Below, piece by piece: positions 9,334 through 64,000 of a stretch of DNA of 64,000 nucleotides; position 1 is the stretch's first letter; every line of letters starts with the position of its first letter. Made by a program: the position numbers and the translations under genes. The notes beneath the pieces were generated by a model that was given only the letters and a program-made list of their open reading frames with translations, made no database searches and was not told the origin of the DNA. The DNA is from Micromonospora endophytica. Lineage in GTDB: Bacteria > Actinomycetota > Actinomycetes > Mycobacteriales > Micromonosporaceae. The stretch is taken from positions 1 to 64,000 of the forward strand of contig NZ_POTX01000001.1 in the NCBI RefSeq assembly GCF_003236305.1, read 5' to 3'.

Positions 9334-10905
9334 TCAGTCGGCTGCGAATCGGAGCCGGGCGAGCACTTCGGCGACCTCCCGGGTCTCCTCATGCTGTGGC
9401 CCGTAGACGATGCAGAGGTCGTCGTACAGCGGCCGCAACTCGTCCCCTGCCTCCGTGGCCTTTCCTTCGGAAAGCAGCAGCATGCCGATGTTGCGGCGTA
9501 AATCCAGGGCTGTGGGGGAGGCGTCGCCGGCGGCGGCGCGCACGTGACTGAGCACCTGCCGGAACTGGCGCAGGGCTGTGGTGGCGTGGCCGAGTTCGGC
9601 CCGGCAGTGGGCTGCCTGGCGGAGGCATTCCAGGGCATCTTCGCTGGTGGGGCCGGCGGTGCGGGCGTAGGCGGCGGCGAGGGCGTCGAATTCCGGCAGC
9701 GCCCGCCGGAAATCCCCACCGATGACGAGGATGGCCGCTCGTCGTGACCGCAGGACCAGCACACGAGGGCTTTCGGCGCCGAGCAAGGCACTGGCGGGCC
9801 CGATCACCTGTTCAAGGATCTCTGCGGCCTGGGTGAAACGTTCGTCGTCCAGCAGTTCGTCGGATTGCGCCACGGCGGCCTTTATGGCGTCTCGGACACC
9901 GGTCCGGAGGATCGCCGCAGGGTCGGCGGCGGCGTCGCTTCGTGGTGTCGGGACGACCGGAGTGGGTTCGGGCCGGCGACGGGGTGCGTTGGGTCGGCGG
10001 TACACCAGCGTCGGGTCGGGCATGGTGCTGTGGGCGGCGTCGGATCCGGGCGGGGCCGATCCAGGCAGGGGAAGGAAGGGCAGTAGCTGCTCGTAGACGT
10101 CATAGGCCTCTGGGGGCCGGTCCTCGGGGGCCTTTGCCAACAGATCGAGGACCAGCTTTTCGATCTCTGCGGGCACGTCGGGGCGGAGCGTACGTAGGGG
10201 TGGTGGTGGCTCGGTGACGTGCTGGCGCCACAGTTCGAAGTCGCTGCTACCGGTGAAGACCCGCTGACCGGCGAAGAGTTCGTGCAGGACGCAGCCGAGG
10301 GCGTACAGGTCGCTCTGGGGTGTGATCTGTGCGCCTTGGATCTGCTCGGGCGGCATGTAGTGGTGGGTGCCGAGGGCGCTGCCGGTAGCGGTGATCTGGG
10401 TGACGTCGGTGCGCAGGATGGCGGCGATGCCGAAGTCGAGGAGCTTGACCGCTCCGTCTGCGGTGACCAGGACGTTGTCGGGTTTGAGGTCACGGTGCAC
10501 GACGGGGATGGCGTGGGCGTGGGACAGGACGGTGCAGATCTGCGCGGCGATCGCGGCGGCCCAGGTGACGGGCAGCGGCTGCTGTGGGTCGATGAAGGCT
10601 CGCAGGGTGGTGCCGCGGACGAACTCCATCACCAGGTAGAGCCGGTCGTAGGAGTGGTCGAGGACGGCGTCGTACACCTGGGGGACGCCGTGGTGTTGGA
10701 TGCGTGCGGTGACGCGGGCCTCGCGGCGGAACCGCCTGGTCAGTTCTTCCGCCTGCTCGGGAGTGTGTACGGCGTCGGGGCGGATGAGCTTGATGGCGAC
10801 CTCGCGGTCGAGGACGCTGTCGTAGCCGCGCCAGACCTGTCCCATCCCGCCGGAGCCGATCTCCTCGACTCGCTCGTACCGGCCCGCGATCGGCTCTGCC
10901 CGCAC
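9334..10905 (-). CDS. Soluble Ser/Thr protein kinase with C-terminal TPR-like domain
   Basis: A 523-aa Hanks-type kinase. Residues 10-270 form the kinase domain, with glycine loop GSGGMGQVW, ATP-binding Lys39 in VAIK, catalytic HRDLKPDN (Asp139) and DFG at 157-159. A Pro-rich linker is followed by a helical C-terminal third (about residues 330-520) that looks like tetratricopeptide repeats. No transmembrane segment is present, unlike PknB-type sensors. Start GTG at 10905 has GGAGG five bases upstream. It follows hsdR by 49 bp on the same strand, so it is probably translated from the same transcript. Kinases occur in phage defence (Stk2, PglW), so a role in the restriction island is plausible but unproven. 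Confidence 0.92.
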   Translation of the reverse strand: MRAEPIAGRYERVEEIGSGGMGQVWRGYDSVLDREVAIKLIRPDAVHTPEQAEELTRRFRREARVTARIQHHGVPQVYDAVLDHSYDRLYLVMEFVRGTTLRAFIDPQQPLPVTWAAAIAAQICTVLSHAHAIPVVHRDLKPDNVLVTADGAVKLLDFGIAAILRTDVTQITATGSALGTHHYMPPEQIQGAQITPQSDLYALGCVLHELFAGQRVFTGSSDFELWRQHVTEPPPPLRTLRPDVPAEIEKLVLDLLAKAPEDRPPEAYDVYEQLLPFLPLPGSAPPGSDAAHSTMPDPTLVYRRPNAPRRRPEPTPVVPTPRSDAAADPAAILRTGVRDAIKAAVAQSDELLDDERFTQAAEILEQVIGPASALLGAESPRVLVLRSRRAAILVIGGDFRRALPEFDALAAAYARTAGPTSEDALECLRQAAHCRAELGHATTALRQFRQVLSHVRAAAGDASPTALDLRRNIGMLLLSEGKATEAGDELRPLYDDLCIVYGPQHEETREVAEVLARLRFAAD

Positions 10906-10954
10906 GTTGCCTCCGTCTCGTCCCGACTGTCAGGGGCCAGAAGACCGCCGCCGG

Positions 10955-13900
10955 TCAGGCGGCCTCGTCGTCGACGACTCCCTCCTGCCTGCGGATCAGC
11001 CGCCAGGCGGCGCTGCGGGCACTGCGGTTGAGCGAGCTGCGGAAGTCGGACTGGGACTGCGGGCCGAAGTAGCGGCGACCGAGGTCTGCGGCGGTTTCGA
11101 AATGATCCATCATCTTCTCTTCGAAGACCGGGATGAAGACGTGGCCGAAGTTTTCCTCGTCGTTGGCGACGGCGGCCTGGCGGACCTTCGGTTCGGCCAT
11201 CGCCTCGTTGAGCGGCTTGACCATGTCGTCGTCGGTGAAGCTGGTGCCGAACCGTTCGTTGAACCGTTCGACAAGCGCCGAGAGCAGGGACTTTTCCGGC
11301 TCGTTGGCTCCACCGGAGCCGTCGCCGAAGCCTTTCATCTCGGCGGCGCCCTCAGGGTTGAGGCTGATGTCGTGCTCGCCGGTCTTCTCCACCCGCAGGT
11401 GGCTGAGGTCGACCTCGCCGATGTCGACGCCGCCGTCGCCGCGCCGGGGCAGCCGGTTGAGCAGGTGCCGGCCGTAGAGGTAGAGCCGTTCCAGCTCCGC
11501 GTCGGCGTAGGGCACGATCTGGGCGAGGAAGCCGTACTTGCGAACGTAGTCGACGAGGTCGGCGCGGAACTTCTCGGCGTCTTCCCAGCCGTCCTCGTCC
11601 GCCAGCAACTCCGCGAAACGGTCGACGGCGGGCTGAAGGTGCCGGTACAGCTCGGCGTGCAGCTTCTCCCACTTCACCGTGTTGCCGCCGGCCTGCTCCT
11701 CGGCGGCCAGGTAGGCCTCGACGAACTCCTGCATCTCCGCCTCGACCAGCAGGTGGGCGGACATGACCCGGCTCTGCGCGGTGTAGAGCAGGTTGGGGTC
11801 CGAGGGGAGGGTCTCGGCTTTTTCGAAGTACGGCCGGAACGCCTCCTTGATCTCCTCGGCGTCGTTGCAGAAGTCCAGCACCGCCAGGTCGCCCTGGCTC
11901 TTGCGGTCGGCGGTCCGGTTGATCCGGGACAGCGTCTGCACGGCGGAGACACCGGAGAGCTTCTTGTTGACGTACATGGTGGTGAGTAGCGGTTGGTCGA
12001 AGCCGGTCTGGTATTTCTCCGCGACCACCAGGATGCGGTATTCGCGCTGTCCGGCGGCGGTGCCGGCGCGGGCGGACTTGTCGTCGGCCCGGGTGTAGCC
12101 GAACGCCTTCGGCAGGGCGCTCTCGGCCAGGCCGCCGTTCTCCTTCGACTCGGTGACCTCCTCGCCCTCATACGTCAACGTGCCGGAGAATGCAACAAGC
12201 ACGCCCGGGTCGGGGTAGTCGCGGTCGTCGAGGTACCGCTTGATCGCCCGAGACATTTGCACGGCGCTCAACCGGGAGGCGGTGACGACCATCGCCTTGG
12301 CCCGCCCGCCGAGCCGGCCGGCGGTGTGGGCCCGGAAATGCTCGACGATGATCTGCGCGTGCTGAGCCACTGTGGAGTCGTGGGTCAGCGCGTACCGAGC
12401 GAGCTCCTTGTTGGCCTTGGAGGAGTCGACCTCCCGCTCGTCCGGGTTTTCGTTTACCAGCTTCCAGTACGTGTCGTAGGTGACGTAATTGCGCAGCGGA
12501 TCGAGGATGAAGCCCTCATCGATGGCCTGCCGCATCGAGTAGGTGTGGAACGGGTGGTACTTGCCGTCCTCGCCGAGAGTGCCGAAGTCTTCGAGGGTCT
12601 TGTGCTTCGGTGTGGCGGTGAAGGCGAAGTAGGAGAGGTTGGCGCTGCGCTGCCGCCTGCGGGCGCTGGCGGCGAGCTTCTCCTCGGCGGTCTGTGGCCC
12701 GGCGGCGCTTATCGCGCCGGCGTCGTCGGAGTCGGCGTCGAGGCCGAGGTCGCGGAGCACCCGCCGCACATCGGTGGCAGCCTCGCCGGACTGCGACGAA
12801 TGAGCCTCGTCCACGACGATCGCGAATCGGCTGCCCCGGATCTCGGTCGGGCTCCGCTTGAGGTAATCCACGAGGGCCGGGAACGTGGCCAGGGTGACCG
12901 TGAGGATTTTGCCGGTCTCCTGGGAGAGCGCCTTGGCGAGTTGCTCCGACTTCGCGCCGTACCGCTCGTCGATCTTCACGACGAGCCCAGCGGTCTGCTC
13001 GAAGCTGCCGACGGTGTCCCGCAGCTGGGAGTCCAGGTTCCGGCGGTCGGTGATGATGAGGACCTTGTCGAAGACCGGGCTGCCGGGTTTGACGCCGGCG
13101 GCGAGCGCGTCCGGGTCGAGCGCCGCCGGGTCGTTCGGGGTGTGCAGCGACGACAGCCGGTGCGCGAGCCAGGCGATGGTGTTCGACTTGCCCGAGCCGG
13201 CCGAGGCCATCACCAGGTAGTTGTGCCCGGCGCCGTGCCGGGCGGCGTGCGCGGTCAGCCGCTTCACCGCATGCCACTGGTGATAACGGGGGAAGATCAA
13301 AGTCTTGCGGGTACGACCACCCGCGCCCTTCTCCTGGTGCAGGTGGACGAAGCGTTCCAGCAGGTCGAGCCAGTTGTCCGGCTGCCAGATCTGCTCCCAC
13401 AGGTAGGAGGCGGCGTATGTGCCGTACTCGGTGGCCGGCGGGTTGCCCTCGCCGCCGGGGCGGCCCGGCCCGGCGCTACCGGTGTTGAACGGCAGGAACG
13501 TGGTCGGCTTGCCCCGCAACTGGGTGGTGACGAAGACCAGGTCCGGGTCGACGGCGAAGTTCGCCACCACCCGGCGGGAGAAGATCAGCTCAGTGGGGTC
13601 ACGCTCCTTGCGGTACTGCTCCTTGGCGTGCACCACGCCGGAGCCGGTGAGCGGGTTCTTCAGCTCGGCCGTGGCCACCGGGATGCCGTTGAGGAAGAGC
13701 GTCAGGTCGAGCCGGTTGCCCCGGTCGGCCTGCTTGGTCGCGTACGCCAACTCCCGCACCACTGTGAGTCGGTTGCGGCGGTAGTCGGCCAGGATCGCTT
13801 CGGACTCCATGAAGGATGGCTTGAAGTACGCCACCCGGAACCGCAGACCGTGAATCTTGAACCCCTTGCGGAGTACGTCGAGCAGTCCGTCCTCCGCGAT

Positions 13901-19375: not shown

Positions 19376-19987
19376 TTACTCCCGTTTGCCGGTCACCAGG
19401 TAGTTGACGTCACGGCAGAACTTGTCGAAGGAGGGCGCGTTGTAACGAGCCATGGACAGATCGAATGCGGCGGCCAAGGCAGGCTGATCGACTCGAGGCC
19501 GATAGCTTCCGCCGTCGTTCCGGTGATGACTGAGCCAGCCCTTGCAGTCTCGTGGCCGCTCGCTGTCGTCGGGGACGGGGATGCCCGCGGGGAGCCCAGC
19601 CCGGCCAGCCAACGACGGTGCGGCCGCGAGAAACCATGCCTCGAACTCTCGATTCGCCAGGACAACGGCGGTGCGCCGGTCCGGTCGTACGGCCTGTGCC
19701 CGTTGAAGTAGCTCAGGTCCCAGGCTCGCCGGGCAGTCGTCGTCGGCATCGATGACGACAAGGATTCCGCCGGGAGCGGTCGGTGGCAGCCGGCGGGCAA
19801 GGCTCTCTACCGCCGCCTCAAGACCGCCACGCTTCACGAGCTTGCTGCGATTCGTCAGGAAGGGGCGCTGGATATCCGCATCCCAGATCATCATGTCGGA
19901 CATCATCCGCCGCAATACGACCGGTAGTGCCGTCAGCTCGCCCTCACCCTCGACCACTGACGCGATGGTCACCCGTTGGGCCGTCAT
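19376..19987 (-). CDS. DUF4276 family protein, Toprim-like nuclease candidate (AriB-like, PARIS)
   Basis: A 203-aa protein. It has an N-terminal acidic motif VEGEGELTALPVVLRRM (Glu13-Glu17), a second acidic cluster VVIDADDD (80-84) and the REFEAWFLA block, all features of the DUF4276/Toprim-like fold. In PARIS (AriA ATPase + AriB DUF4276), AriB is the effector released on sensing anti-restriction proteins and acts as a tRNA-cleaving nuclease. Start ATG at 19987 overlaps the ATPase stop by 4 bp, so the pair is translationally coupled. It is shorter than typical AriB (about 250-300 aa), so I call it PARIS-like only. Confidence 0.8.
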   Translation of the reverse strand: MTAQRVTIASVVEGEGELTALPVVLRRMMSDMMIWDADIQRPFLTNRSKLVKRGGLEAAVESLARRLPPTAPGGILVVIDADDDCPASLGPELLQRAQAVRPDRRTAVVLANREFEAWFLAAAPSLAGRAGLPAGIPVPDDSERPRDCKGWLSHHRNDGGSYRPRVDQPALAAAFDLSMARYNAPSFDKFCRDVNYLVTGKRE

Positions 19988-52955: not shown

Positions 52956-55718
52956 CTACTGGTCACCGGCGCGGAGTACCTCGCTGAGCCGGTCGCGTCG
53001 CCGCAGCGCCGACTCGACAGGTACGACCACGGCGGCAGCCGCCAGCAGCGCCACGCTCACCAGGCCGAACAGCCACCACGGCAGGACCGCCGCCGGGTCG
53101 GCGGCTTGACCGGTGAGCAGCCGTAGCTCGATCGGACCGAGTGTCAGGCGGGCGAGCAGGGCCCCGAGCAGCGGGCCGCACACCGCGGCGACCACCACCG
53201 GCGGCAGCAGTTCTCCGGCGGCGACCCAGCGGGCGTCGCGTGGCCGTAGGCCGAGGGTCCGCAGCCGGGTCAGGGTCTGCCACCGCTCCGACGCACCGGC
53301 GGCGGCGGAGAGTGTGAGGCCGAGCAGCCCCAGCGCCAGCAACGCCGCTGCGGCCGTCCAGGCCAGTCGTAGTATCCCGGCGGTCAGCGGAGCCACTCGC
53401 TGTGCCCGCAGGACGTCTGCGCGCAGCACGACGTCGGCGGCGACGCCGCTGTTCGACACGGCCCGCGCCGCGCCGGGGCCGGTCACCCAGACGGTATTGG
53501 GAACGGCGGGCAGCCCCGCGTCGGCGAGGGCCGTGGCGTCGACGATGACGACGTCGTCGGCACCACCGACGGAGGGAGCGGTACCGACCGCAGCGAGGTG
53601 GATCGCCGGGGCGTCGTCCCGGGACAGTTGTAGTCGCGTGCCGGTCCGCAGGTCGCCGTTGCTCGATCGGACCAGCGCGGGGACGCCCCCGGGGCCAGGA
53701 CCGGGTGCGGTGAGCCGGGCCAGTGCCGGCGCGTCGGGCAGCGGGGTGGTGGCCAGCAGGCGCTGGAACGCGGCGGCGTCCACGATGACCAGCCGTGGAG
53801 TGAGCAGCGTCGATTCGGTGAAGACGCGCGCCGAGTCGGTCACCTGCGCGACGACGACCTGCCCTACCCCGGGTGCGGCAACGATGCGCTCGGCGAGCGC
53901 GGGCGTCGCGGCGTCGGCGTCGGCGCCGATGTCGAGGCGGGCGTCGGCGCCGACGGTGCTCCACGCGCCGTCGGCCAGACCCCGGGTGACGGTGGCGCCG
54001 ACGACGAGCGCGAACGACGCGAGCGCCGTGGCGCTGACCAGCACCAGCAGCGGCAGCGCGCGTCCGGCGGTGGTGGCCGCCCGGGCGGCGCCGAACACGG
54101 CCAGCGGGCGGCGCGAGCGCAGGGCCTGGCGGAGCGTGAACCCTACTCCGACGGGCAGCAGCCGCAGCAGGACGATCGCTGCGGCGAGCACGCCCAGCGC
54201 GACGGCGCCGAGCGGTAGGACCAGGTCGCCGGTCAGCTCACCGGCGTCGCCGTCGGAGGCGACGGGCAGGAGCCCACGCTGATGCAGCGTGACGAAGGCG
54301 GCGACCGCGGTGATCAGAACGGCGGACTCCACGACGGCGCGGCGCAGTTGGCCGGTGGCCAGGATCCAGCGCCGAGCCGCCCGGTTGGCGGGTTGGCGCC
54401 GGTCGCGGCTGGCGCGGGCGGCGGCGAGGATGCCGAACGCCGGCCCGGCGACGGCACCGGCCAGGACCACGGGAACGCTCCAGGTCCAGCAGACCCCCGG
54501 TGCGGCCACGCGGGCGAGCGCGAGCCCGACGGCGGCGGCAGACAGGGACACCACACTGGACTCGATGATCAGTTCCGTACCGAGGTCGGGTAGCGCCGCA
54601 CCACGCTGCCGGGCGGCGCGTAGCGCCGGGGCACGGCGGCGGACCAGCAGGTCGGCGGCGAGCAGCAGGACCAGTACCGTGACGGTCAGGACTCCGGCGA
54701 GCAGCACGGCGGCCTGTGCGAAAGCGGCGCTGATCTGGGTACGGGCGTCGCGTAGGACGGTGTCGAGCTGCGATTCCCACTTCAGGGACTGGCTGCGGTC
54801 GGCTGATGCGCCGGAGGCTGCCTTGAGCTTCACCACCTGGCTGGCGATCGTCTCGGTGGCGTCCCAGGTGAGCGCGTCGGGTTCGGGGGCGAAGTGGATG
54901 GTGCGCCGGAGTTGATCCTCGTCGATGGCGAGCCGGGCGTCCGGCAGCGACTCGCGCGACAGCAGGCCGGCGAACCGGGTGGTGCCCACACCGTCGGCAC
55001 CAGGCACGGGGCGTAGCAGCGCTGGGGCGAGTTGCCAGGCCGGGTCGGCGCTGTCCGCGGGTCGGTAGATCCCGCTGATCCGGACGTCCTTGTCCTGACC
55101 GTGGCCGTCCTGGACCGGGATTCGATCGCCGGGACCGAGGTCGAGGGCGGTGGCGTCGGTCTCGGAGAGGCCGACCTGCAGCGGCCAGGGCGGTCCGTGG
55201 GAGGGGATCTCGATGAACTGTTCGGGGACGGCGGGGCCGGGTGCGCTGCCGGAGATCCAGGTCACGTCCGGGCCGCCGAGGTCACCGGCCAGGTAGGTGA
55301 ACTGGAAGGTACGCGGCACATCACCGCCGGTGATGCGCAGGATCGGGCCGTTGACAACGGCGACGGGCGGGCGCAGCGCGGTGTCCAGGTCGGGCCCGAG
55401 CAGGTAGGTCGCCCGGGCGCGGAAGTCGTCGATGTCCTCGGCGAGGCGGGTCATCCGTACCCGTCCGCCGGTCGGACCGTTGTCGTGTTCCCAGTTGGCG
55501 TGTACGAGGACGTTCGAGCCCTGGCCGGCGCGGCGTACCGTGTCCTGGACGGCGTTGTCGGCGCCGGCCCGGAGCAGCGCCGGCACGGCCCCGGCGAGCA
55601 GCGTGACGGCCGCGATGACGGCGGCGGTGAGCAGCAGCGCACCGGCGTCGGCACGGCCACGGCCACGGACGCTGGGCCAGTGCGGCGCCGGCCACCGGCG
55701 GGTCAGCCACCGGTTCAC
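52956..55718 (-). CDS. FtsX/MacB-type ABC exporter permease, second of two
   Basis: A 920-aa membrane protein. One membrane helix near the N-terminus (about 25-45) is followed by a large extracytoplasmic domain. A block of helices near 310-330 and 360-440 and a second permease-like unit with helices at the C-terminal end (LRLAWTAAAALLALGLLGLT and beyond) follow. This is the duplicated FtsX layout. Start GTG at 55718 overlaps the upstream permease stop by 4 bases. It works with two ATPases encoded upstream; substrate unknown, often peptides or lipids in this family. Confidence 0.85.
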   Translation of the reverse strand: MNRWLTRRWPAPHWPSVRGRGRADAGALLLTAAVIAAVTLLAGAVPALLRAGADNAVQDTVRRAGQGSNVLVHANWEHDNGPTGGRVRMTRLAEDIDDFRARATYLLGPDLDTALRPPVAVVNGPILRITGGDVPRTFQFTYLAGDLGGPDVTWISGSAPGPAVPEQFIEIPSHGPPWPLQVGLSETDATALDLGPGDRIPVQDGHGQDKDVRISGIYRPADSADPAWQLAPALLRPVPGADGVGTTRFAGLLSRESLPDARLAIDEDQLRRTIHFAPEPDALTWDATETIASQVVKLKAASGASADRSQSLKWESQLDTVLRDARTQISAAFAQAAVLLAGVLTVTVLVLLLAADLLVRRRAPALRAARQRGAALPDLGTELIIESSVVSLSAAAVGLALARVAAPGVCWTWSVPVVLAGAVAGPAFGILAAARASRDRRQPANRAARRWILATGQLRRAVVESAVLITAVAAFVTLHQRGLLPVASDGDAGELTGDLVLPLGAVALGVLAAAIVLLRLLPVGVGFTLRQALRSRRPLAVFGAARAATTAGRALPLLVLVSATALASFALVVGATVTRGLADGAWSTVGADARLDIGADADAATPALAERIVAAPGVGQVVVAQVTDSARVFTESTLLTPRLVIVDAAAFQRLLATTPLPDAPALARLTAPGPGPGGVPALVRSSNGDLRTGTRLQLSRDDAPAIHLAAVGTAPSVGGADDVVIVDATALADAGLPAVPNTVWVTGPGAARAVSNSGVAADVVLRADVLRAQRVAPLTAGILRLAWTAAAALLALGLLGLTLSAAAGASERWQTLTRLRTLGLRPRDARWVAAGELLPPVVVAAVCGPLLGALLARLTLGPIELRLLTGQAADPAAVLPWWLFGLVSVALLAAAAVVVPVESALRRRDRLSEVLRAGDQ

Positions 55719-58700
55719 GGTGCCACCCGCAGGTGCGCCGCGTCGGCCCGGCGGACCTGGACGATGACCACCACGGCGACCGCCAGCAGGCATCCGGCCA
55801 GCAGCACGGCGAGCAGCGCGGCCTCGGCCGGCCACGGCCAGTGTGGCTGGGCGGCCGGGACCGGCGCGGCGCCGGTGTCGGAGCGTACGAGCAGGGGAGC
55901 GACGACGCGGGTGGCGAGCGCGCCGACGGCCGCGCCCGCCGCGAGCAGGGGCAGCAGCACGCCGGCGTGCTGACCGAGCAGTACCGCCCGGATGCCGCGC
56001 CGGGACATCCCCAGCCCACGCAGCCGCGCCACCTCGACGGCGCGGACCTGGAGATCGCAGGTCACGTGCAGCACGACGCCGGCGAGCAGCAGCAGGGCCG
56101 AGGCCGGGACGATGAGCCGGAGCGCGGCCGGCAGCCCGGCGTGCAGCGGGCCACCGGTGAGCCGGGCGGTCTCCGCCTCGCGGGTCGCGACGGTGCCCAG
56201 GTGCAGGGCGGTGGCCCGCTCGGCGGCACCGGGATCGGCGGGGTGGCCGACCCACCAGGCGTCGACCGGGAAGGTCAGGTCACCGGCGACGGCGCGGGCG
56301 CGCGACAGCATGTCCAGGTCGGCCAGGACGGCGACGGCGCCAGGAGCGGACGGTACGGTCGGCACCACCTCGGTGACGACGATCGGGACGGGCGTGGTGC
56401 CGACCGTGACGCTGAGCTGGCTGCCGCTGTCGGCACCGACCTCGCTGGCGAAGCGGGCGGAGACGGCGACGGGCACCGGGCCGGGGTCCGGGAAGGCGGT
56501 GGCGGCGAGGGTGCGGGCGGCGTCCGGGGCACCGCCGAGGTCGACTGTCATCGCCATTCGCAGCGCGGTCCCCGTCGGCGTGGCGGAGAGCACCACGGTT
56601 GGGTCACGCAACTTGCTCGGCACCGGCGGCGCGGATGTGGCGGTCCAATCCGATCCGTCGGCCGATCCAGCGGGCGGCATGGTGAGGGTGACGGCCAGGG
56701 CGGTGCGGCCGCCGACCGTGGGCTCGGCATCCGGGTCGGCCGTGACCGGCAGGGAGACCGCGACGAGACGCAGTCCGTCGGCGGTGGCGCACTCGGGCAG
56801 CCGGTGCTCCCGGCCGTCGAGCGGCACGGGGGGACCGGTGCAGGTTATCCGCAGACCGGCGGCGTCCTGCAGCAGCAGCTGGGGCGTCACGGCGATCGAG
56901 GTGTCGTCGGTCGCGGTCCCGCTCAGGACGAGCGGGGCACCAGCCGCAATGGCGAGGCCGGTGACGCGGGTCGGTGGGGCGAGCCGGGCGCCCACCTCCG
57001 CCCAGGTGCGGCCATGGTCGAGCCGCCCACGTAGCAGCGCGTCGGCGCGGGTGGTGTCGACGGCGACCAGGCGCGGCGGATCGCCGGCGGTGCCGAGCCA
57101 CTGACCGACGGCCGTACCCCGATTGAGGGCTGGACTCGCCGCCCCGGAGGTGGCCGTGCCGACGACCGTCCCCTCTCCGGCCACCGGCGCCGTGCTGAGG
57201 GTGAGTGCCAGGTCGGTGCCGACGGCAAGCGCGGCCTGGTCGCGCTGCGACTGGTGCCACGTGGCGTCGAAGGCGAGGCCGAAGGTTGCGGCTGCGCAGG
57301 CCAGCCCGACGAGCAGCCCGGCGGCGACCGCCTGGGGTCGACGGGCGGCCTCGGAGACCGCCAGCGGAAGCGCCAGCCCACGGGCGCGGTACGCCAGCCG
57401 GTCGACGCCGCGCAGGGCGGGCAGTACCACCCGCAGCGCCAGGGCGGCGCCTGCGGTGAGCAGCAGCGCCGGCGCGATCACCCGGACCGGGTCGGCGCGT
57501 GGGCTGGCGGCGGTGGGCTGCGCGTACAGCTGCCACCATCCGGCGGCGGCGAAGACCGCGAGCATCAGGTCGGCGCCGGACCGGGTCAGCAGCTCGCGGC
57601 GGGTGCGCCGGTCGCCGGCTGCCGGGCCGGGCCGGATCGCCAGGAGGGTGATCACCGCGGCGAGTACCAGCGCGCCGCCAGCGACCACGAGGACCTGGAT
57701 GCCGGTGATGGCCGGCCGGACGGCCAGGCCGGCGCCGTCCAGCGGCGGCAGCTGGGTCAGGCCGGCGTGCAGGGCCGACGACGCCGGTATCGCGAGGGCG
57801 ACGGCGACGGCGGCGACGAGCCCGGCCTCGAGTGTCGCGGTGGCGGCGAGTTGGCGGCGGCTGGTGCCGAGGGCGGACCGCAGGGCCGTCTCGTCGGCGC
57901 GGATGCCCGCGGTCAGCCGGCCGGCGAGGACGAGCGCCGTCGCGGCCAGGACACCACCGAGGACGGCGATGGCGAGCACGACGGCGGCGGTGGCCTGCCG
58001 CTGGTCGTCGGCGGAGCGCAGGGTCAGCGGCAGGTCGGAGGCGACCCGGGCGAGCCGGACGCGGTCGCCGAGGGTGCCGGCCAGCCGACGGTCGGCACCG
58101 CGGACGGCCCCGGCCACGGCCTCCAGGTCGCGGCGGTTGGCGTTGGACAGGTCCGGATGGGCGGTGACCTCCATCCGGTCGACTGTGGCACCGGTGGTGA
58201 ACAGGTCGGCGAGGTCGACGAGGAACGGGCCGTAGGCGTTGACCGGCTGCCGGAAGCGACCGTCCTGGTGGCCGCTGGTGGAGCCGGCCGCGGCCAGCGG
58301 GTCGCGGTCCCAGCCGCGCCCCGGCAACGGGCGCACCACACCGACGACCGTCACGTCGATGGCCGGGACGGGATCGTGGGCCAGCTCGGCGCCGAGGCGC
58401 ACCCGGCGACCGGGGGAGAGGCCGAGCAGGTGGGCGGTGGACTCCAGCACCACCGCGTCACCACGCTCGCGCGGCCAGCGTCCGGTGACCAGCTCGGCTC
58501 GGGTCGGCAGGTCGTCCAGCCCCGACAGGTACGCCTGGGCCGGGACGGTGGTGCCCGGGGCGAGCGCGGGCGGCAGCGCCCGCAGCACTGTCGACGCCCG
58601 CGCGGTGGTGGTCACCGGGAACGGTGCGAGCGCGGCGGCGACCACGGTGCGGGTGTCGGCGGCGACGGACCGCGCGTCCGGACCCTCGACGGTGCCGGTG

Positions 58701-58885
58701 TAGACGGTCACGCCGACGTCGGTGGGATCCGCGCCGGCCATGGCGACCTCCAGCGCCCGCTCGGCGGTGCGGGTACTCAGCAGGGCGCAGGTGCCCAGCA
58801 CTGTCGCGCCGACCGTGACCACCCCGATCAGGGCCGCCAGCAACGGCCACTGCGCACGGGCGCGCCGGCTGACCAGCCTCAGCAT
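55715..58885 (-). CDS. FtsX/MacB-type ABC exporter permease, first of two
   Basis: A 1056-aa paralogue of the downstream permease. It has an N-terminal membrane anchor (about 15-35), a long extracytoplasmic domain, a core of membrane helices around 290-460, a second extracytoplasmic domain, and a C-terminal helical trio (LRLIVPASALLLLAGVVLHV and after). ATG at 58885, 7 bp after the ATPase stop. Probably a heteromeric pair with the 920-aa protein. Confidence 0.85.
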   Translation of the reverse strand: MLRLVSRRARAQWPLLAALIGVVTVGATVLGTCALLSTRTAERALEVAMAGADPTDVGVTVYTGTVEGPDARSVAADTRTVVAAALAPFPVTTTARASTVLRALPPALAPGTTVPAQAYLSGLDDLPTRAELVTGRWPRERGDAVVLESTAHLLGLSPGRRVRLGAELAHDPVPAIDVTVVGVVRPLPGRGWDRDPLAAAGSTSGHQDGRFRQPVNAYGPFLVDLADLFTTGATVDRMEVTAHPDLSNANRRDLEAVAGAVRGADRRLAGTLGDRVRLARVASDLPLTLRSADDQRQATAAVVLAIAVLGGVLAATALVLAGRLTAGIRADETALRSALGTSRRQLAATATLEAGLVAAVAVALAIPASSALHAGLTQLPPLDGAGLAVRPAITGIQVLVVAGGALVLAAVITLLAIRPGPAAGDRRTRRELLTRSGADLMLAVFAAAGWWQLYAQPTAASPRADPVRVIAPALLLTAGAALALRVVLPALRGVDRLAYRARGLALPLAVSEAARRPQAVAAGLLVGLACAAATFGLAFDATWHQSQRDQAALAVGTDLALTLSTAPVAGEGTVVGTATSGAASPALNRGTAVGQWLGTAGDPPRLVAVDTTRADALLRGRLDHGRTWAEVGARLAPPTRVTGLAIAAGAPLVLSGTATDDTSIAVTPQLLLQDAAGLRITCTGPPVPLDGREHRLPECATADGLRLVAVSLPVTADPDAEPTVGGRTALAVTLTMPPAGSADGSDWTATSAPPVPSKLRDPTVVLSATPTGTALRMAMTVDLGGAPDAARTLAATAFPDPGPVPVAVSARFASEVGADSGSQLSVTVGTTPVPIVVTEVVPTVPSAPGAVAVLADLDMLSRARAVAGDLTFPVDAWWVGHPADPGAAERATALHLGTVATREAETARLTGGPLHAGLPAALRLIVPASALLLLAGVVLHVTCDLQVRAVEVARLRGLGMSRRGIRAVLLGQHAGVLLPLLAAGAAVGALATRVVAPLLVRSDTGAAPVPAAQPHWPWPAEAALLAVLLAGCLLAVAVVVIVQVRRADAAHLRVAP

Positions 58886-58892
58886 CGGCGCG

Positions 58893-59615
58893 TCACCCGG
58901 CGTCCGGCGCGGGCTCGTCCGGCTGCCCGGCCGCTGCCTCGTCGAGTAGCCCGTCGTGGATGCGGATCACCCGGTCCGCCAACGCCATCATCACCGGGTC
59001 GTGGGTGGACACCAGAACGGTGACGCCTTCGGACTCGACCACCCCGCGCAGCAGGGCCATCACCGACAGGCCGGTCTCCGCGTCCAGTTGCCCGGTGGGT
59101 TCGTCGGCGATCAGCAGCCGGGGCGAGGCGGCCAGCGCGCGGGCGATCGCCACCCGCTGCTGCTGGCCGCCGGACAGCTCAGCCGGCCGCTGCCGGGCGT
59201 GGTCGGCCAGGCCGACCAGCTCCAGCAGCAACTCGACCCGCCGCTCGCGCTCGGCCGGGGCGACGCGGGCCAGCCGCAGCGGGGCGGCGACGTTCTCCGC
59301 GGCCGACAGCACCGGGATCAACCCGAAGCTCTGGAAGACGTACGACACCTTCTCGCGCCGCAGCCGGGACAGGCCGTCCTCGTCGAGCGCGGTCACCTCG
59401 GTGCCGTCGACGTGCACGCTGCCGGCGTCCGGGCGATCCAGGCCGCCGACGGTGTTGAGCAGGGTGGTCTTGCCCGAGCCGGACCGTCCGACCAGCGCCA
59501 CCATGGTGCCGGCGGCCACGTCGAACGACACCCCGCGCAGGGCGGGTACGACGGTCGGCCCGGTGCGGAAGCTCCGGTGCACGCCGCGCACCCGCAGCAG
59601 CGGCTCGCTGCTCAT
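58893..59615 (-). CDS. MacB/LolD-type ABC exporter ATPase
   Basis: A 240-aa ATPase. Walker A is GRSGSGKTT (43-51), the signature LSGGQQQRVAIARAL, Walker B LLIADEPTGQLD, and the switch histidine lies in VSTHDP. It partners the two FtsX-like permeases. It overlaps the previous ATPase gene by 4 bases. A short acidic, Pro/Ala-rich C-terminal tail follows the domain. Confidence 0.93.
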   Translation of the reverse strand: MSSEPLLRVRGVHRSFRTGPTVVPALRGVSFDVAAGTMVALVGRSGSGKTTLLNTVGGLDRPDAGSVHVDGTEVTALDEDGLSRLRREKVSYVFQSFGLIPVLSAAENVAAPLRLARVAPAERERRVELLLELVGLADHARQRPAELSGGQQQRVAIARALAASPRLLIADEPTGQLDAETGLSVMALLRGVVESEGVTVLVSTHDPVMMALADRVIRIHDGLLDEAAAGQPDEPAPDAG

Positions 59616-60544
59616 TCGCCGCTTCCCGAGGGGCGGATCGTGATGTGGTCGGGTTCCAGGGCCAGCCGGACCCGTCGGGTCAGCGCCAACGCCTGGCGGA
59701 AGTCCCGGGGCACCTGTACCCGTCCGGCCCGGTCCATCACGGCGTACTCCTCGGCGATCGTGTGCGTGTCGCCCACCGCGTCGGTGGTGGTGCGGCGCAG
59801 CACCTCGCTGCTGGTGCGCCCATCCCGGATCGCGACGGTCCGTTCGACCTGGCCGCTGACCTCCCGGTCGTGGGTCACCACGACAACGGTGACGCCGTAC
59901 CGCCGGTTGACCTCCCGCAGCACACCGAAGACCTCAGCGGAGGTGGCGGCGTCCAGCTCGCCGGTCGGCTCGTCGGCGAGCAGCACCCGCGGCCGGTTGG
60001 CCAGCGCCACCGCGATCGCCACCCGCATCTGCTGTCCGCCGGAGAGTTGCCCGGGGCGCCGGTCGGCGCAGTCGGCGACACCGAGGCTGTCCAGCAGCTC
60101 CGCCGCGCGCTCCCGGCGCTCCTTCTTCGCGGTACGGGCCGCCGTCATCGGCAGGTCCACCATCTCCTGTGCGGTCAGGTAAGGGATCAGGTTGCTCGCC
60201 GTCTGCTGCCGTACGAACCCGACGGTCTGCCGCCGGTATTCCACCCGGTCGGCGGGGGACATCGCCAGCAGATTCCACCTGTCGACCCGGACCCGCCCGG
60301 CGGTGGGGGCGTCGATGCCGGCCAGGATGGCGAGCAGCGTCGACTTGCCCGACCCGGAGGCACCGACGACGGCGACCAGCTCACCGCTCTCCACGGCCAG
60401 GTCCAGACCCTGCAGTGCCTGCACCTCTATCGAGCCGGTCTGGTAGATCCGCACCAGGTTCTCGCAGACGATGAGCGCGTCCCGGCCGAACTCGGGTGCC
60501 CGCGCGGATGGCTGCGGCAGGGACAGCGGTGTGCGGGACATCAT
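59612..60544 (-). CDS. MacB-type ABC exporter ATPase fused to a C-terminal AbrB-like hairpin
   Basis: A 310-aa ATPase. Walker A is GASGSGKST (61-69), the signature LSGGQQMRVAIAVAL, Walker B VLLADEPTGELD, and the switch histidine lies in VVTHDREV. After the nucleotide-binding domain a ~40-residue tail (from about 268) reads VMDRAGRVQVPRDFRQAL, then RVRLALEPDHITI, the swapped-hairpin AbrB/SpoVT pattern. ATG at 60544 (with a second ATG directly after) has GAGG five bases upstream. First ATPase of the exporter operon. Confidence 0.9.
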   Translation of the reverse strand: MMSRTPLSLPQPSARAPEFGRDALIVCENLVRIYQTGSIEVQALQGLDLAVESGELVAVVGASGSGKSTLLAILAGIDAPTAGRVRVDRWNLLAMSPADRVEYRRQTVGFVRQQTASNLIPYLTAQEMVDLPMTAARTAKKERRERAAELLDSLGVADCADRRPGQLSGGQQMRVAIAVALANRPRVLLADEPTGELDAATSAEVFGVLREVNRRYGVTVVVVTHDREVSGQVERTVAIRDGRTSSEVLRRTTTDAVGDTHTIAEEYAVMDRAGRVQVPRDFRQALALTRRVRLALEPDHITIRPSGSGE

Positions 60545-60731: not shown

Positions 60732-60927
60732 GGCGGCACTGACGTGCGGCGGGTGAACGCGATCGTCCCGGTCCGGGCACCCCTGCCGTCGACCACAGTC
60801 TGCCCCGGCACCTGCTGATGCCTCCCCACCACAAGGAGGTAAGCGGGGTGATCGACCGGAGCATCCACTGACTGCGGTGTGGTCGGTCCGTGGGCCGGCC
60901 ACACCCAGGGACCGAACTAGCAATTGC

Positions 60928-60950
60928 AAATGACAACCGTTATCGTCTGG
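60928..60950. promoter_or_regulatory. Fur/Zur-family-like palindrome upstream of the ATP-grasp gene
   Basis: Imperfect 11-1-11 palindrome, core ATGACAACCGTTATCGT, with 8 of 11 arm positions complementary, centred at 60939 and ending 34 bp before the GTG at 60985. The AT-richer ATGAnAAC-N-GTTnTC shape resembles actinobacterial Zur/Fur boxes; the identity of the binder is inference. Confidence 0.5.
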
Positions 60951-60984
60951 TGGTCCGGGATCCCCTGAACGTCGGGAGCGCGCG

Positions 60985-62259
60985 GTGGGCCACGTGTTGT
61001 TAGTCGAGAGCTGGGTCGGTGCGATGAGCACCCTGCTGCCCCGGGCGATCCGGGAAGCAGGGCATCGGTTCACCTTCCTGACCAGGAACCTGCATCACTA
61101 CCTGCGCCAGGGCGTCGGCGAAGATGTGCACCCGTTGCTCACCGCGGACAACGTGATCACCGCCGAGACCAACGACCTGGACACGCTGCGGCACCAGGTC
61201 CAGCGGCTGCACGAGGTGCTGCGGTTCGACGGGGTCATCACGTCGTGTGACTACTACCTCAGCACCGCGGCTCAGTTGGCCGCACAGCTGGACCTGCCTG
61301 GTGCACGCCCGGAAGCCGTCGAGTGTGCCTACCGCAAGGACTTGGCGCGGCAGCGGATGCAGGCGGCCGGCCTGCCTGGTCCGGCGTTCGCGATCACCGA
61401 GGACTGGCCGGGCACCGAGGCCGCCGCACGCAGGCTGGGCTTCCCTCTGGTCGTCAAACCGGTCGACCTGTGCGCCGGGATGTTCGTCCGGCTGGTGGCC
61501 GACAGGACACAGCTGCGCGAGGCGTTCGATGCCCTCGGCGATTTCCCGGTCAATGCCCGTGGCCAGCAGCGCTCGTCGCTGGTGCTGTTGGAGGAAGTTC
61601 TGGTCGGGCCGGAGGTCAGCGTCGAGACCGTCACGATCGACCGGGCGACCACAGTGCTCGGCGTGACGGACAAGAGCCTGGCCGGTGAGCCGTGGTTCGT
61701 GGAGACGGGGCACATGTTCCCCGCGGCGCTCGATGCCGCCACGGCCACCGCGGTGTGTGACATGGCGGTCGCCGCCCTCGCCGCGGTCGGGTTCGACCGC
61801 GGCGTGGCACACACCGAGCTGCGGCTGACGGCAGCCGGGCCGCGGGTGGTGGAGATCAACCCTCGCCCGGCGGGTAACCAGATCACCGAGTTGGTCCGGC
61901 GGGCGACAGGGGTGGATCTCCCCATGGTGTTCGCCCAGCTCGCCCTCGGGGAACAGCCGGACCTCGGGGTGGCCGACACGGGGGTACGCAGCGCAGCCAT
62001 CTCGTTCCTGCTTCCGCCCCGAGCCGGAACCGTTGCCGGGATCGACGGTTCGGCCGCGCTCACCGCGGCTCCCGATGTCGTGGACTGGGCGGTGAAACCC
62101 GCCGGGCACCGCACCGCTGACGCGGTCAGCAACAACAACTACCTCGGCCATGTCATGACCGTGGACACCGTAGGCCACGGCGCCCGGGCCCGGGCCGAGG
62201 AACTGGTTGCCGGGCTGGGCGTTCGGTACGCCGACGACATGGCGGGAGCCCTCGCGTGA
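60985..62259 (+). CDS. ATP-grasp carboxylate-amine ligase
   Basis: A 424-aa ligase that would activate a carboxylate as acyl-phosphate and join it to an amine. Its pre-ATP-grasp domain begins MGHVLLVESWVGA. ATP-binding Lys158 is in PLVVKPVDLCAG, and the metal/ATP site is Glu290-x-Asn292 in VVEINPRPAGNQ. Length and layout match amino-acid ligases of small peptide or siderophore pathways. GTG at 60985. The next gene overlaps its stop by 4 bases. With the DUF364 and PLP genes it forms a coupled operon behind a Fur/Zur-like site, so a chelator is a reasonable product. Confidence 0.88.
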   Translation: MGHVLLVESWVGAMSTLLPRAIREAGHRFTFLTRNLHHYLRQGVGEDVHPLLTADNVITAETNDLDTLRHQVQRLHEVLRFDGVITSCDYYLSTAAQLAAQLDLPGARPEAVECAYRKDLARQRMQAAGLPGPAFAITEDWPGTEAAARRLGFPLVVKPVDLCAGMFVRLVADRTQLREAFDALGDFPVNARGQQRSSLVLLEEVLVGPEVSVETVTIDRATTVLGVTDKSLAGEPWFVETGHMFPAALDAATATAVCDMAVAALAAVGFDRGVAHTELRLTAAGPRVVEINPRPAGNQITELVRRATGVDLPMVFAQLALGEQPDLGVADTGVRSAAISFLLPPRAGTVAGIDGSAALTAAPDVVDWAVKPAGHRTADAVSNNNYLGHVMTVDTVGHGARARAEELVAGLGVRYADDMAGALA

Positions 62260-63104
62260 CGACGCCGACGCCGGTCGAGACCGGTGAGCCGTTCACGTCG
62301 GTGACCGATCTGATCGAGGCCGTCCGCGCGGCCCACCTCGGCCCCGACCCGGCCGATGAACTGGTCAGCGTCGCGTTCACCACCCGGCAAGGTGCCCGGC
62401 ACGCCGGTCGTCTCCGGGGCTACCGCAACCACGTGCTCAGCCTCCGGGTGGGTTCCACCGTCGGTTCATGCGCGGTGGAGCCGGACGAGCTGACCGACGA
62501 GGTCGCCTACGACTGTGTGGGGCGCGGCGTCGCGGAACTGCTGACCCACCCGGTACGGGCGGTCCGCGTCGCGGCCCTCGACGCCTACCTCGCCGCGGCC
62601 CGCCCGCATGCGCAGGCCGCCCACGACACGGTGACGATCCCCGCAGGTGGCTCGCTGGCCAAATCGACCGCCCGGGCCACCGCGGTGGCGGAGCTGATAC
62701 CGGTGGCTCCGGGGCGGCGTGTCCTGGTCGTCGGTGTGGTGAATTCCCTGCTCGAACAGTTGCGCCGCCGCGGCGTCAGCTACCTGCCCTGCGATCTGGC
62801 GGGCGGCAGCACTGAATGGGGCGAGCCGTGCCTGCCGGACGCCGCCGCCCTGCTGGAAGGCTGCGACGCCCTGCTGGTGTCCGGGATGACCCTGGGCAAC
62901 GGCACATTCGAGCCGCTGCTGCGGCACGCCCGCGCGACCGGCAAGCCGATGGTGGCCTTCGCGCAGACCGGCAGCGCCGTCCTACCGTGCTTCCTCGGCT
63001 CTGGACTGAGCGCCGTGTCGGCCGAGCCGTACCCGTTCTTCTGGCTCGACGGCGGACCGACGACGATCTACCGCTATCGGGTCGCCGCCGGGTCGCCGTG
63101 CTGA
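62256..63104 (+). CDS. DUF364/DUF4213 'putative heavy-metal chelation' domain protein
   Basis: A 282-aa protein. The N-terminal ~110 residues fit a DUF4213-like cap. The C-terminal Rossmann-like domain carries [40 protein letters not shown] and [14 protein letters not shown], the DUF364 pattern. The family name comes from association with metal-related loci; no reaction is firmly established. GTG-type start overlaps the ATP-grasp stop by 4 bases, and the next gene overlaps its end by 7. It may bind metal or act on the chelator made by its neighbours. Confidence 0.75.
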
Positions 63105-64000
63105 CCGTCCCCGCCCCGGCCACGTGCGTACCGCACCTGCTGGGGTTGCTGGGGCGCTCCCCGGTGGCGTTCGTCGATGTCCCGCTGCCGCACCCGCACG
63201 GCGGCTTCCACGCCAAGGTGGAGTACCTGAGCCCGGGCGGCATGAAAGCCCGCGCCGCCGTGGCCATGCTGCGGGCCGCTCGGCTGCGCGGCGAGCTTCG
63301 ACCAGGAGCCACAGTGGTGGAGTCCACCAGCGGCACCCTCGGGCTGGGGCTGGCGTTCGCCGGGCAGGCTCTGGGCCACCCGGTCGTCCTGGTGGTGGAT
63401 CGCGAACTGGAACGATCGATGCGGGCGCTGCTGACCGCCTACGGGGCGGCGGTCGAAAAGGTCGAGCAGCCGCATCCGGTCGGCGGATGGCAGCAGGCCC
63501 GCCTGGACCGGCTGCACGAGGTGCTGGCGCGCATTCCGGGCGCCTACTGGCCCGACCAGTACCACAACCCGGACAACGTCACCGGCTACTGCACCCTCGC
63601 CGAGGAGTTGACCGCACAGGTCGAGGCCGTTGATGTGCTGGTGTGCAGCGTCGGCACCGGCGGGCACAGTGCCGGCCTGGCCCGAGCGCTCAGGCGGCAC
63701 TGGCCCGGGATGCGGCTCGTCGGTGTCGACACCGTCGGCTCGACGATCTTCGGTCAGCCCGCGAGGCCGCGGCTCATGCGCGGATTGGGCAGCAGCATCT
63801 TCCCCCGCAACGTCGACTACGCCGCCTTCGACGAGGTGCACTGGGTCGGCCCGGTGGAGGCGGTGGACACCTGCCGCCGGCTGGCGCGTTCGGCGTTCGT
63901 CACCGGCGGCTGGAGCACCGGCGCCGTCGCCCGGGTCGCCGCGTGGATCAGCCGCATGCAGCCCGGTGCCCGGGTGGTCACGATCTTCCCGGATGGTCCG
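63098..64000 (+). CDS. Cysteine-synthase-like PLP enzyme (partial, runs off the window)
   Basis: The first 301 codons of a fold-type II PLP enzyme. The Schiff-base lysine is Lys50 in [10 protein letters not shown] (family norm GGSVKDR-like). [16 protein letters not shown] binds substrate and [12 protein letters not shown] binds the cofactor phosphate. Relatives include CysK, cystathionine beta-synthase and SbnA, which makes an intermediate of diaminopropionate for siderophores. GTG at 63098 overlaps the DUF364 stop by 7 bases. In this context a beta-substitution making an unusual amino acid for a metallophore is plausible; the 3' end is outside the window. Confidence 0.88.

Follow-up and report, generated by a model that had tools for sequence, protein, structure and literature searches.

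Staphylopine is a small product built from amino acids, with one residue epimerised, and it is made without a nonribosomal peptide synthetase (NRPS); coelibactin is made by an NRPS, and the ethylenediaminedisuccinic acid (EDDS)-type and diaminopropionate routes use an ornithine-cyclodeaminase-like or SbnB-like partner. Excerpts of previous studies indicate that the cnt opine zincophore systems hold biosynthesis, efflux, and an Opp-type or FecCD-type ATP-binding cassette (ABC) importer in one cluster (PMC7438024), that coelibactin of Streptomyces coelicolor is a Zur-controlled putative zincophore (PMC5472717), and that EDDS is also Zur-controlled (PMC4993170, PMC9252823). According to further excerpts, an aminopolycarboxylic-acid cluster contains ornithine-cyclodeaminase-like, diaminopimelate-decarboxylase-like, and cysteine synthase genes (PMC13206832), and the ethylenediaminesuccinic acid hydroxyarginine (EDHA) cluster spans 11 kb, from scab_5231 to scab_5311 (PMC8914351). 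We analyzed bases 1-64000 (the window) of the 122,618-bp contig NZ_POTX01000001.1 in the 6.5-Mb genome of Micromonospora endophytica. Nine same-strand genes form an operon at contig positions 60985-72148, numbered as in the window, which holds the first third and cuts off the end. As judged from its genes and its promoter region, this is a real and conserved metallophore operon, probably controlled by Zur. We consider it likely that the metallophore is a zincophore, i.e., that the operon makes, secretes, and retakes a small zinc-binding metabolite when zinc is scarce; the zinc assignment is drawn from the Zur-type box in front of the operon.

The operon resembles the cnt systems in combining biosynthesis, export, and import genes, and making, exporting, and re-importing a product under a zinc switch would be the logic of a staphylopine-type zincophore, as far as genes can tell. 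However, a search confined to its nine proteins gave neither a CntL-type nicotianamine-synthase-like domain nor a CntM-type opine dehydrogenase domain. Instead, the operon encodes a pyridoxal 5'-phosphate (PLP)-dependent enzyme of the beta-replacement type, an ATP-grasp ligase, a DUF364 protein, and an enolase-superfamily enzyme. Coelibactin is, like the operon, actinobacterial, but no NRPS domain occurs among the nine proteins.

The first three genes are translationally overlapped, as an earlier note on this DNA had read them: the ATP-grasp and DUF364 genes by 4 bp (GTG at 62256; stop ending at 62259) and the DUF364 and PLP genes by 7 bp (GTG at 63098; stop ending at 63104), with Pfam confirming the families. 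The exporter and importer genes that the note sought beyond 64000 are present there as a major facilitator superfamily (MFS) gene and as binding protein and ABC genes (Table 1). The note also placed a Fur/Zur-like box at the promoter, and this box fits the Zur type better than the iron type and recurs over many genera. Its 23-bp imperfect palindrome exists one base away from the position given (60928-60950 pairs at 2/11 positions and 60927-60949 at 8/11, with 5/7 in the 15-bp core TGACAACCGTTATCG), and it is unremarkable as a bare palindrome, with 265 of the 63,978 23-mers in the window pairing equally well. The open reading frame (ORF) after the ninth gene gave no Pfam match and no match across the 80 loci described below. 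An Rfam scan at gathering scores over 13 kb gave no match either, on which riboswitch control was rejected.

Table 1. Features of the operon and its upstream region, in contig positions; functions as predicted.
Feature	Position	Strand	Remarks
Zur-like operator (predicted)	60927-60949		15-bp core TGACAACCGTTATCG at 60931-60945
Possible -35 element TTGCAA	60924-60929	+	Directly 5' of operator; TTG enrichment across 61 loci
ATP-grasp ligase, L-amino-acid-ligase type	60985-62259	+	424 aa; Pfam ATP-grasp_4 and LAL_C2
DUF364 protein	62256-63104	+	282 aa; PF04016
PLP-dependent beta-replacement-type enzyme (cysteine synthase/CBS/SbnA-like)	63098-64174, past window end	+	358 aa; PF00291
Enolase-superfamily enzyme, dipeptide-epimerase-like	64171-65193	+	Contig beyond window
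MFS transporter	65190-66425	+	MFS_1
Class I S-adenosylmethionine (SAM) methyltransferase	66422-67225	+	Pfam
Nik/Opp-type binding protein	67258-68820	+	SBP_bac_5; twin-arginine and lipobox-like start by eye
Permease	68817-69761	+	BPD_transp_1
Permease fused to two ATPase domains	69758-72148	+	BPD_transp_1/ABC_tran

The first base of the core TGACAACCGTTATCG lies 54 bp before the ATP-grasp start codon. Published excerpts give the Zur motif as tGaNNatSatNNtCa from S. coelicolor chromatin data and as taaTGaNAANNNTTNtCANta from the znuA genes of 17 actinobacteria (PMC5472717), and the core agrees with the actinobacterial consensus at 9 of 10 informative positions. Recurrence was scored as the best 15-mer within 200 bp upstream against the 10 consensus positions, with 100 dinucleotide-shuffle runs, in 79 upstream regions (the 80 loci plus the window, minus L038 with 34 bp upstream and the masked L044). 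A box of at least 8/10 occurs in 73 of these 79 regions (shuffles: mean 1.6, maximum 6/79) and one of at least 9/10 in 53 (shuffle mean 0.14), counts that come from related loci and are not independent cases. Expectation-maximisation without a consensus prior was run from 25 random starts, the best of which returned AATGAAAATGATTAT. In a set thinned from 79 to 61 loci, the information content is 1.42 bits per column within the box and 0.12 in the flanks. The rows were aligned on the best consensus match, which in itself inflates the value for the box, but columns that are free in the consensus or lie outside it are also conserved, namely G at +7 (0.77), A at +8 (0.72), and A at -2 (0.87). Both the agreement with the Zur consensus and the frequency with which it recurs exceed chance. 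In the same 61 loci, the box is flanked by a favoured TTG at -7 and, at +16, by an element resembling TAnnnT, and would therefore sit within the promoter spacer. Iron control was rejected, the best IdeR/DmdR-like match in the 200 bp upstream reaching 9/19 of the consensus.

A related site occurs elsewhere in the genome. The pattern TGAHAAYSRTTWTCR, devised after the boxes were known, has one exact match (the operon box) and none reversed, and allowing one mismatch adds four places. One of these, TGACAATCATTCTCG, is situated 20 bp upstream of the gene that gave the single full-length ZnuA match in the genome; this gene is followed by ATPase-like and permease-like ORFs (by eye) and then by the best FUR-family match. 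Two mismatches give 64 and 64 matches versus 12 and 8 for the control, too many to use. A match at contig position 118151 was set aside, its adjoining genes having no visible tie to zinc, and a test of the motif on zinc-sparing ribosomal proteins was dropped because a single L28 gene was found in the genome.

The operon is conserved across actinobacteria. Named genome contigs were scanned with the DUF364 protein, and the best 80 of 285 stretches encoding a relative were taken; they belong to Micromonospora, Actinoplanes, Frankia, Streptoalloteichus, Actinokineospora, Saccharothrix, Lentzea, Nonomuraea, Saccharopolyspora, Kitasatospora, Nocardia, Streptomyces, and others. The nearest copy among the named genomes scanned is that of Micromonospora qiuiae, with 91-96% protein identity. 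All nine genes are present in the same order, on one strand, and within 14 kb or less in 68/80 loci (tblastn, E 1e-20), and an ATP-grasp relative in 80/80. As for the incomplete loci, four (L091, L096, L099, and L105) run into a contig end, and part of L044 is masked. The methyltransferase alone is missing from L039, L063, and L072, and L048, L078, and L114 match in the first four or five genes alone. The operon of Nonomuraea roseoviolacea (L060) is broken at 10780-11350, where the start of the PLP gene is fused to the last permease; everything between these two points is lost, and the ATP-grasp and DUF364 matches are full length. In wider samples, DUF364 relatives were found in 32/298 genomes of the order (E 1e-10, distant type included) and in 6/396 genomes of a thinner phylum sample (1e-30).

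Nine plasmid records also contain a DUF364 relative. Four were examined, and the gene order of the operon recurs in two of them, one from Streptomyces angustmyceticus and one from Rhodococcus sp. ZPP, with the last permease and ATPase as separate genes in Rhodococcus. Their genes are named ATP-grasp, DUF364 (hypothetical protein in Rhodococcus), cysteine synthase family, dipeptide epimerase, MFS, methyltransferase, and ABC, and Zur-like boxes of 9/10 precede the first gene by 119 bp (S. angustmyceticus) and 58 bp (Rhodococcus). The operon may have been transferred between genera. The Rhodococcus copy (L205, 8640-19839) is complete, lies on a mobilizable-typed plasmid, and has a recombinase gene ~240 bp away. 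At 19821 this plasmid carries another Zur-like match (8/10), which precedes a DUF1490 gene and a gene annotated as hypothetical.

The PLP, ATP-grasp, and enolase-type enzymes have all kept their catalytic motifs. The ATP-grasp protein (PF13535, 64.8 bits; LAL_C2, 53 bits) has the L-amino acid ligase 3VOT as its best solved relative (99 bits) and resembles the ATP-grasp half of an ATP-grasp/argininosuccinate-lyase model, without the lyase half. It thus resembles the L-amino acid ligase type, with dipeptide ligation predicted from its domains. The PLP protein (PF00291, 177.6 bits over its in-window portion) groups by sequence with cysteine synthase, cystathionine beta-synthase, and SbnA; of the NCBIfam models, TIGR03945 (SbnA) scores highest, with a lead of 94 bits, at 256.9 bits and below the cut-off of 349.95, and the PLP lysine is conserved in 79/79 relatives. 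The enolase-superfamily protein matches dipeptide epimerases, and K154, K156, D181, E207, D232, K254, D304, and D306, which we take to be the KxK motif, the D/E/D metal ligands, the second-side lysine, and the DxD motif, are kept in 76-78 of 78 relatives, a few of them partly aligned.

The DUF364 protein matches PF04016 (39.6 bits versus a cut-off of 23) in its C-terminal part only; the N-terminal half has no Pfam match. The sequence alone gave no convincing solved relative, and a profile search of solved structures gave 3NPG at 6.7e-6. Its AlphaFold2 model (pLDDT 90.7) aligns with 3L5O (Z 18.6, rmsd 3.6, 221 residues) and 3NPG (Z 18.5, 217 residues), two DUF364 structures with which the protein shares the Pfam match in the C-terminal part and the overall fold. 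The next fold matches are mostly fold-type-I PLP enzymes (Z ~9 to 10; the Foldseek list was also examined), and it is the C-terminal half that resembles fold-type-I PLP domains. Excerpts from the 3L5O study show that its authors saw the same resemblance and that heavy-metal chelation was proposed for the family in 2010 from gene context (PMC2954201); those excerpts contain no operon of such make-up and no link to Zur. In a structure alignment of 39 rows, a subset of the loci that excludes L048 (a stop codon in its DUF364 stretch), G160, D180, M211, N215, and E257 are conserved in nearly all rows, which fits an enzyme. DUF364 was also considered as a replacement for CntL, since each of the two has a Rossmann-like half. 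No nicotianamine synthase occurs among the 50 fold matches listed for the DUF364 model, which does not exclude the protein as a stand-in for CntL.

These likenesses suggest the following scheme, in which Zur occupancy, zinc as the metal, the enzyme substrates, and the product are predicted. With zinc present, Zn-Zur on the operator in the promoter spacer would block transcription, and without zinc, Zur would leave. The PLP enzyme would add the amine of an amino acid to an aminoacrylate derived from serine, so that a secondary amine connects carboxylates, and the ATP-grasp ligase would couple this intermediate to another amino acid via an amide bond. The enolase-superfamily enzyme would then invert the centre adjoining the amide, and the methyltransferase would add a methyl group, a step that may be optional, as its gene is missing from three otherwise complete copies. 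DUF364 would perform a core step common to a second operon type. Finally, the MFS protein would export the product, and the lipoprotein-like binding protein and the ABC transporter would import the metal complex. An MFS_1 exporter and an Opp-type importer (SBP_bac_5, BPD_transp_1, ABC_tran) stand together in the cluster; their direction and cargo are predicted.

The second operon type emerged from distant DUF364 relatives (46% identity or less), 17 of 20 of which were fetched with flanks, at 37-46% identity. A PLP gene (31-36% identity) is near DUF364 in all 17 loci. A Zur-like box lies within 4 kb upstream of DUF364 in 16 of them, 11 at 9/10 or better and 5 at 8/10, and the background rate at 8/10 or better is 0.14 per 4.5 kb (nine loci, outside the upstream stretch). 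FecCD and GHMP gene content was scanned in L158 and L166 of the 17. L158 encodes, by Pfam, a FecB-type binding protein, a FecCD permease, and a GHMP-family kinase; L166 encodes a binding protein and a GHMP kinase by Pfam, with the permease and ATPase recognised by eye. The two kinases gave no NCBIfam matches at 1e-8. The gene tables of two Streptomyces plasmids are similar to this type, and L158, L166, L203, and L204 have in common DUF364, the GHMP kinase, the PLP enzyme, a FecCD importer, a nearby MFS gene, and Zur-like boxes. O-phosphoserine is the substrate of SbnA, and our guess is that the GHMP kinase supplies it. Two intermediate loci, L175 and L177, keep DUF364, PLP, MFS, and the Opp-type importer. 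From the 17 distant loci and the gene content of these two, DUF364 plus the PLP enzyme is the common core, which occurs together with Zur-like boxes in two architectures. We give about an even chance to the broader idea that DUF364 and the SbnA-like PLP enzyme are the core of a widespread, undescribed actinobacterial class of zincophores. Its members would be small aminopolycarboxylates of the pseudo-dipeptide kind, whose synthesis would involve neither an NRPS nor opine dehydrogenase nor SbnB, in one version with ATP-grasp, epimerase, and a Nik/Opp-type importer (this operon) and in another with a GHMP kinase and a FecCD-type importer.

Several observations weigh against the zincophore interpretation. 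The link of Zur and zinc to the operon is drawn from sequence, and the pattern TGAHAAYSRTTWTCR was of our own making, so its exact match in the window is there by construction. Three of the four one-mismatch places look incidental, lying between ORFs (C29), in a region of lower GC (C518), and inside a gyrB-like ORF by eye (C561). Six of the 79 upstream regions reach only 7/10, L163 is the sole distant locus without a Zur-like box, and L175 and L177 have neither a box nor a match to ATP-grasp, epimerase, or methyltransferase. A promoter scan of the window sequence gave no sigma-70-like promoter, and the -10 side is weak. The SbnA label is also weak: a different gene in this genome reaches 254.7 bits with TIGR03945, matches below the cut-off occur in all 14 control genomes, and the best solved relative of the PLP protein is the cystathionine beta-synthase Rv1077, followed by SbnA (5D84-5D87). 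Its motif reads ESTSGTLG, and the SGN and KDR of SbnA are changed to SGT and KAR in 79/79 relatives, so the substrates may differ from those of SbnA; possibly the changes amount to a substrate switch. In addition, the importer is closest to families that transport nickel, opines, or peptides and therefore does not reveal the metal.

This importer leads to the first alternative, namely a metallophore for nickel, cobalt, or several metals, either induced by zinc starvation or mis-assigned, whose complex is taken up by the NikA/Opp-like importer. The binding protein and permease resemble nickel, opine, and peptide transporters; their best named models are nickel ABC transporters, at 130 of 600 and 231.7 of 350 bits, respectively, both below the cut-offs, and nickel-binding structures are among the solved matches. 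The TTGCAA at 60924, presumably a half site as in Nur boxes, also points to nickel, but it is the single such half site in the checked stretch and coincides with the supposed -35 element. Moreover, the recurrent element fits the Zur consensus and has a related site at znuA in the same genome, and we regard this alternative as unlikely.

Also improbable is a zinc-regulated product that is not a metallophore, such as a signal or an antibiotic that targets zinc; the ABC genes would then import a precursor peptide. ATP-grasp ligases and epimerases serve dipeptide antibiotics as well, and BacD and dapdiamide synthase are among the weak matches. However, exporter-type and importer genes share one operon in 68/80 loci, and the examined loci of the second operon type have a siderophore-type FecCD importer, both of which fit a shuttle molecule better. 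The absence of NRPS domains noted above also speaks against such a product.

The earlier note proposed a metallophore pathway modelled on EDDS or on diaminopropionate siderophores. A metallophore-type operon does stand behind a Zur-type box, but the two specific models find no support, and membership of the EDDS/EDHA aminopolycarboxylates or the SbnA/SbnB diaminopropionate siderophores is very improbable. With EDDS and EDHA (aminopolycarboxylic acid in antiSMASH) the operon shares a cysteine-synthase-like enzyme and, in the EDDS case, probable Zur control. It differs, in clusters compared by description, by having no ornithine-cyclodeaminase-like or decarboxylase gene and by adding ATP-grasp, DUF364, and the epimerase; the EDHA cluster is similar in size to the operon, which calls for caution in separating the classes, as EDHA was compared by description only. 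In the case of SbnA/SbnB of staphyloferrin B, SbnA provides the best model and some of the best solved matches of the PLP enzyme, but the score stays below the cut-off, the two motif residues are changed, and SbnB is missing. No SbnB-like, ornithine-cyclodeaminase-like, or diaminopimelate-decarboxylase-like family was found among the nine proteins, on which both memberships were rejected, and the dehydrogenase that the note sought beyond 64000 was likewise not among them. At E 1e-60, SbnB has no match in 21 of 32 DUF364 genomes, this one included. The further remark that the combination is unlike any described pathway stands uncontradicted: of the papers that searches of the open-licence PMC literature returned, none describes an operon of such make-up in its title or the opening of its abstract. 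A chance palindrome before an ordinary amino-acid-metabolism operon without metal control is hardly credible, for although equally strong palindromes are common in the window (265), the box recurs against diverged flanks, exceeds the shuffle control, and appears in distant loci too.

If the zincophore interpretation is right, many actinobacteria share a zinc-scavenging small molecule whose annotated genes carry generic names only. DUF364, hitherto linked to heavy-metal chelation by context in the excerpts available (PMC2954201), would gain a first function, and natural metal chelators a new biosynthetic logic. The compact operon with its predicted switch would be a simple test bed.

The minus strand at 52956-60544 encodes two large ABC-exporter-permease-like ORFs and two ATPases of the MacB/LolD type, all divergent from the operon. 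Their nearest likely start is ~440 bp upstream of the ATP-grasp gene, and they show no tie to the operon. A search for further conserved neighbours of the operon returned mostly antisense shadow ORFs. In 27/80 loci, a divergent hydrolase gene, secreted-peptidase-like by eye (e.g., L047, 6979-8637), adjoins the box-bearing intergenic region, and in L202 (8021-9508) the divergent gene is annotated as an alpha/beta hydrolase. The divergent hydrolase gene could be under the control of the operon's Zur-like box.

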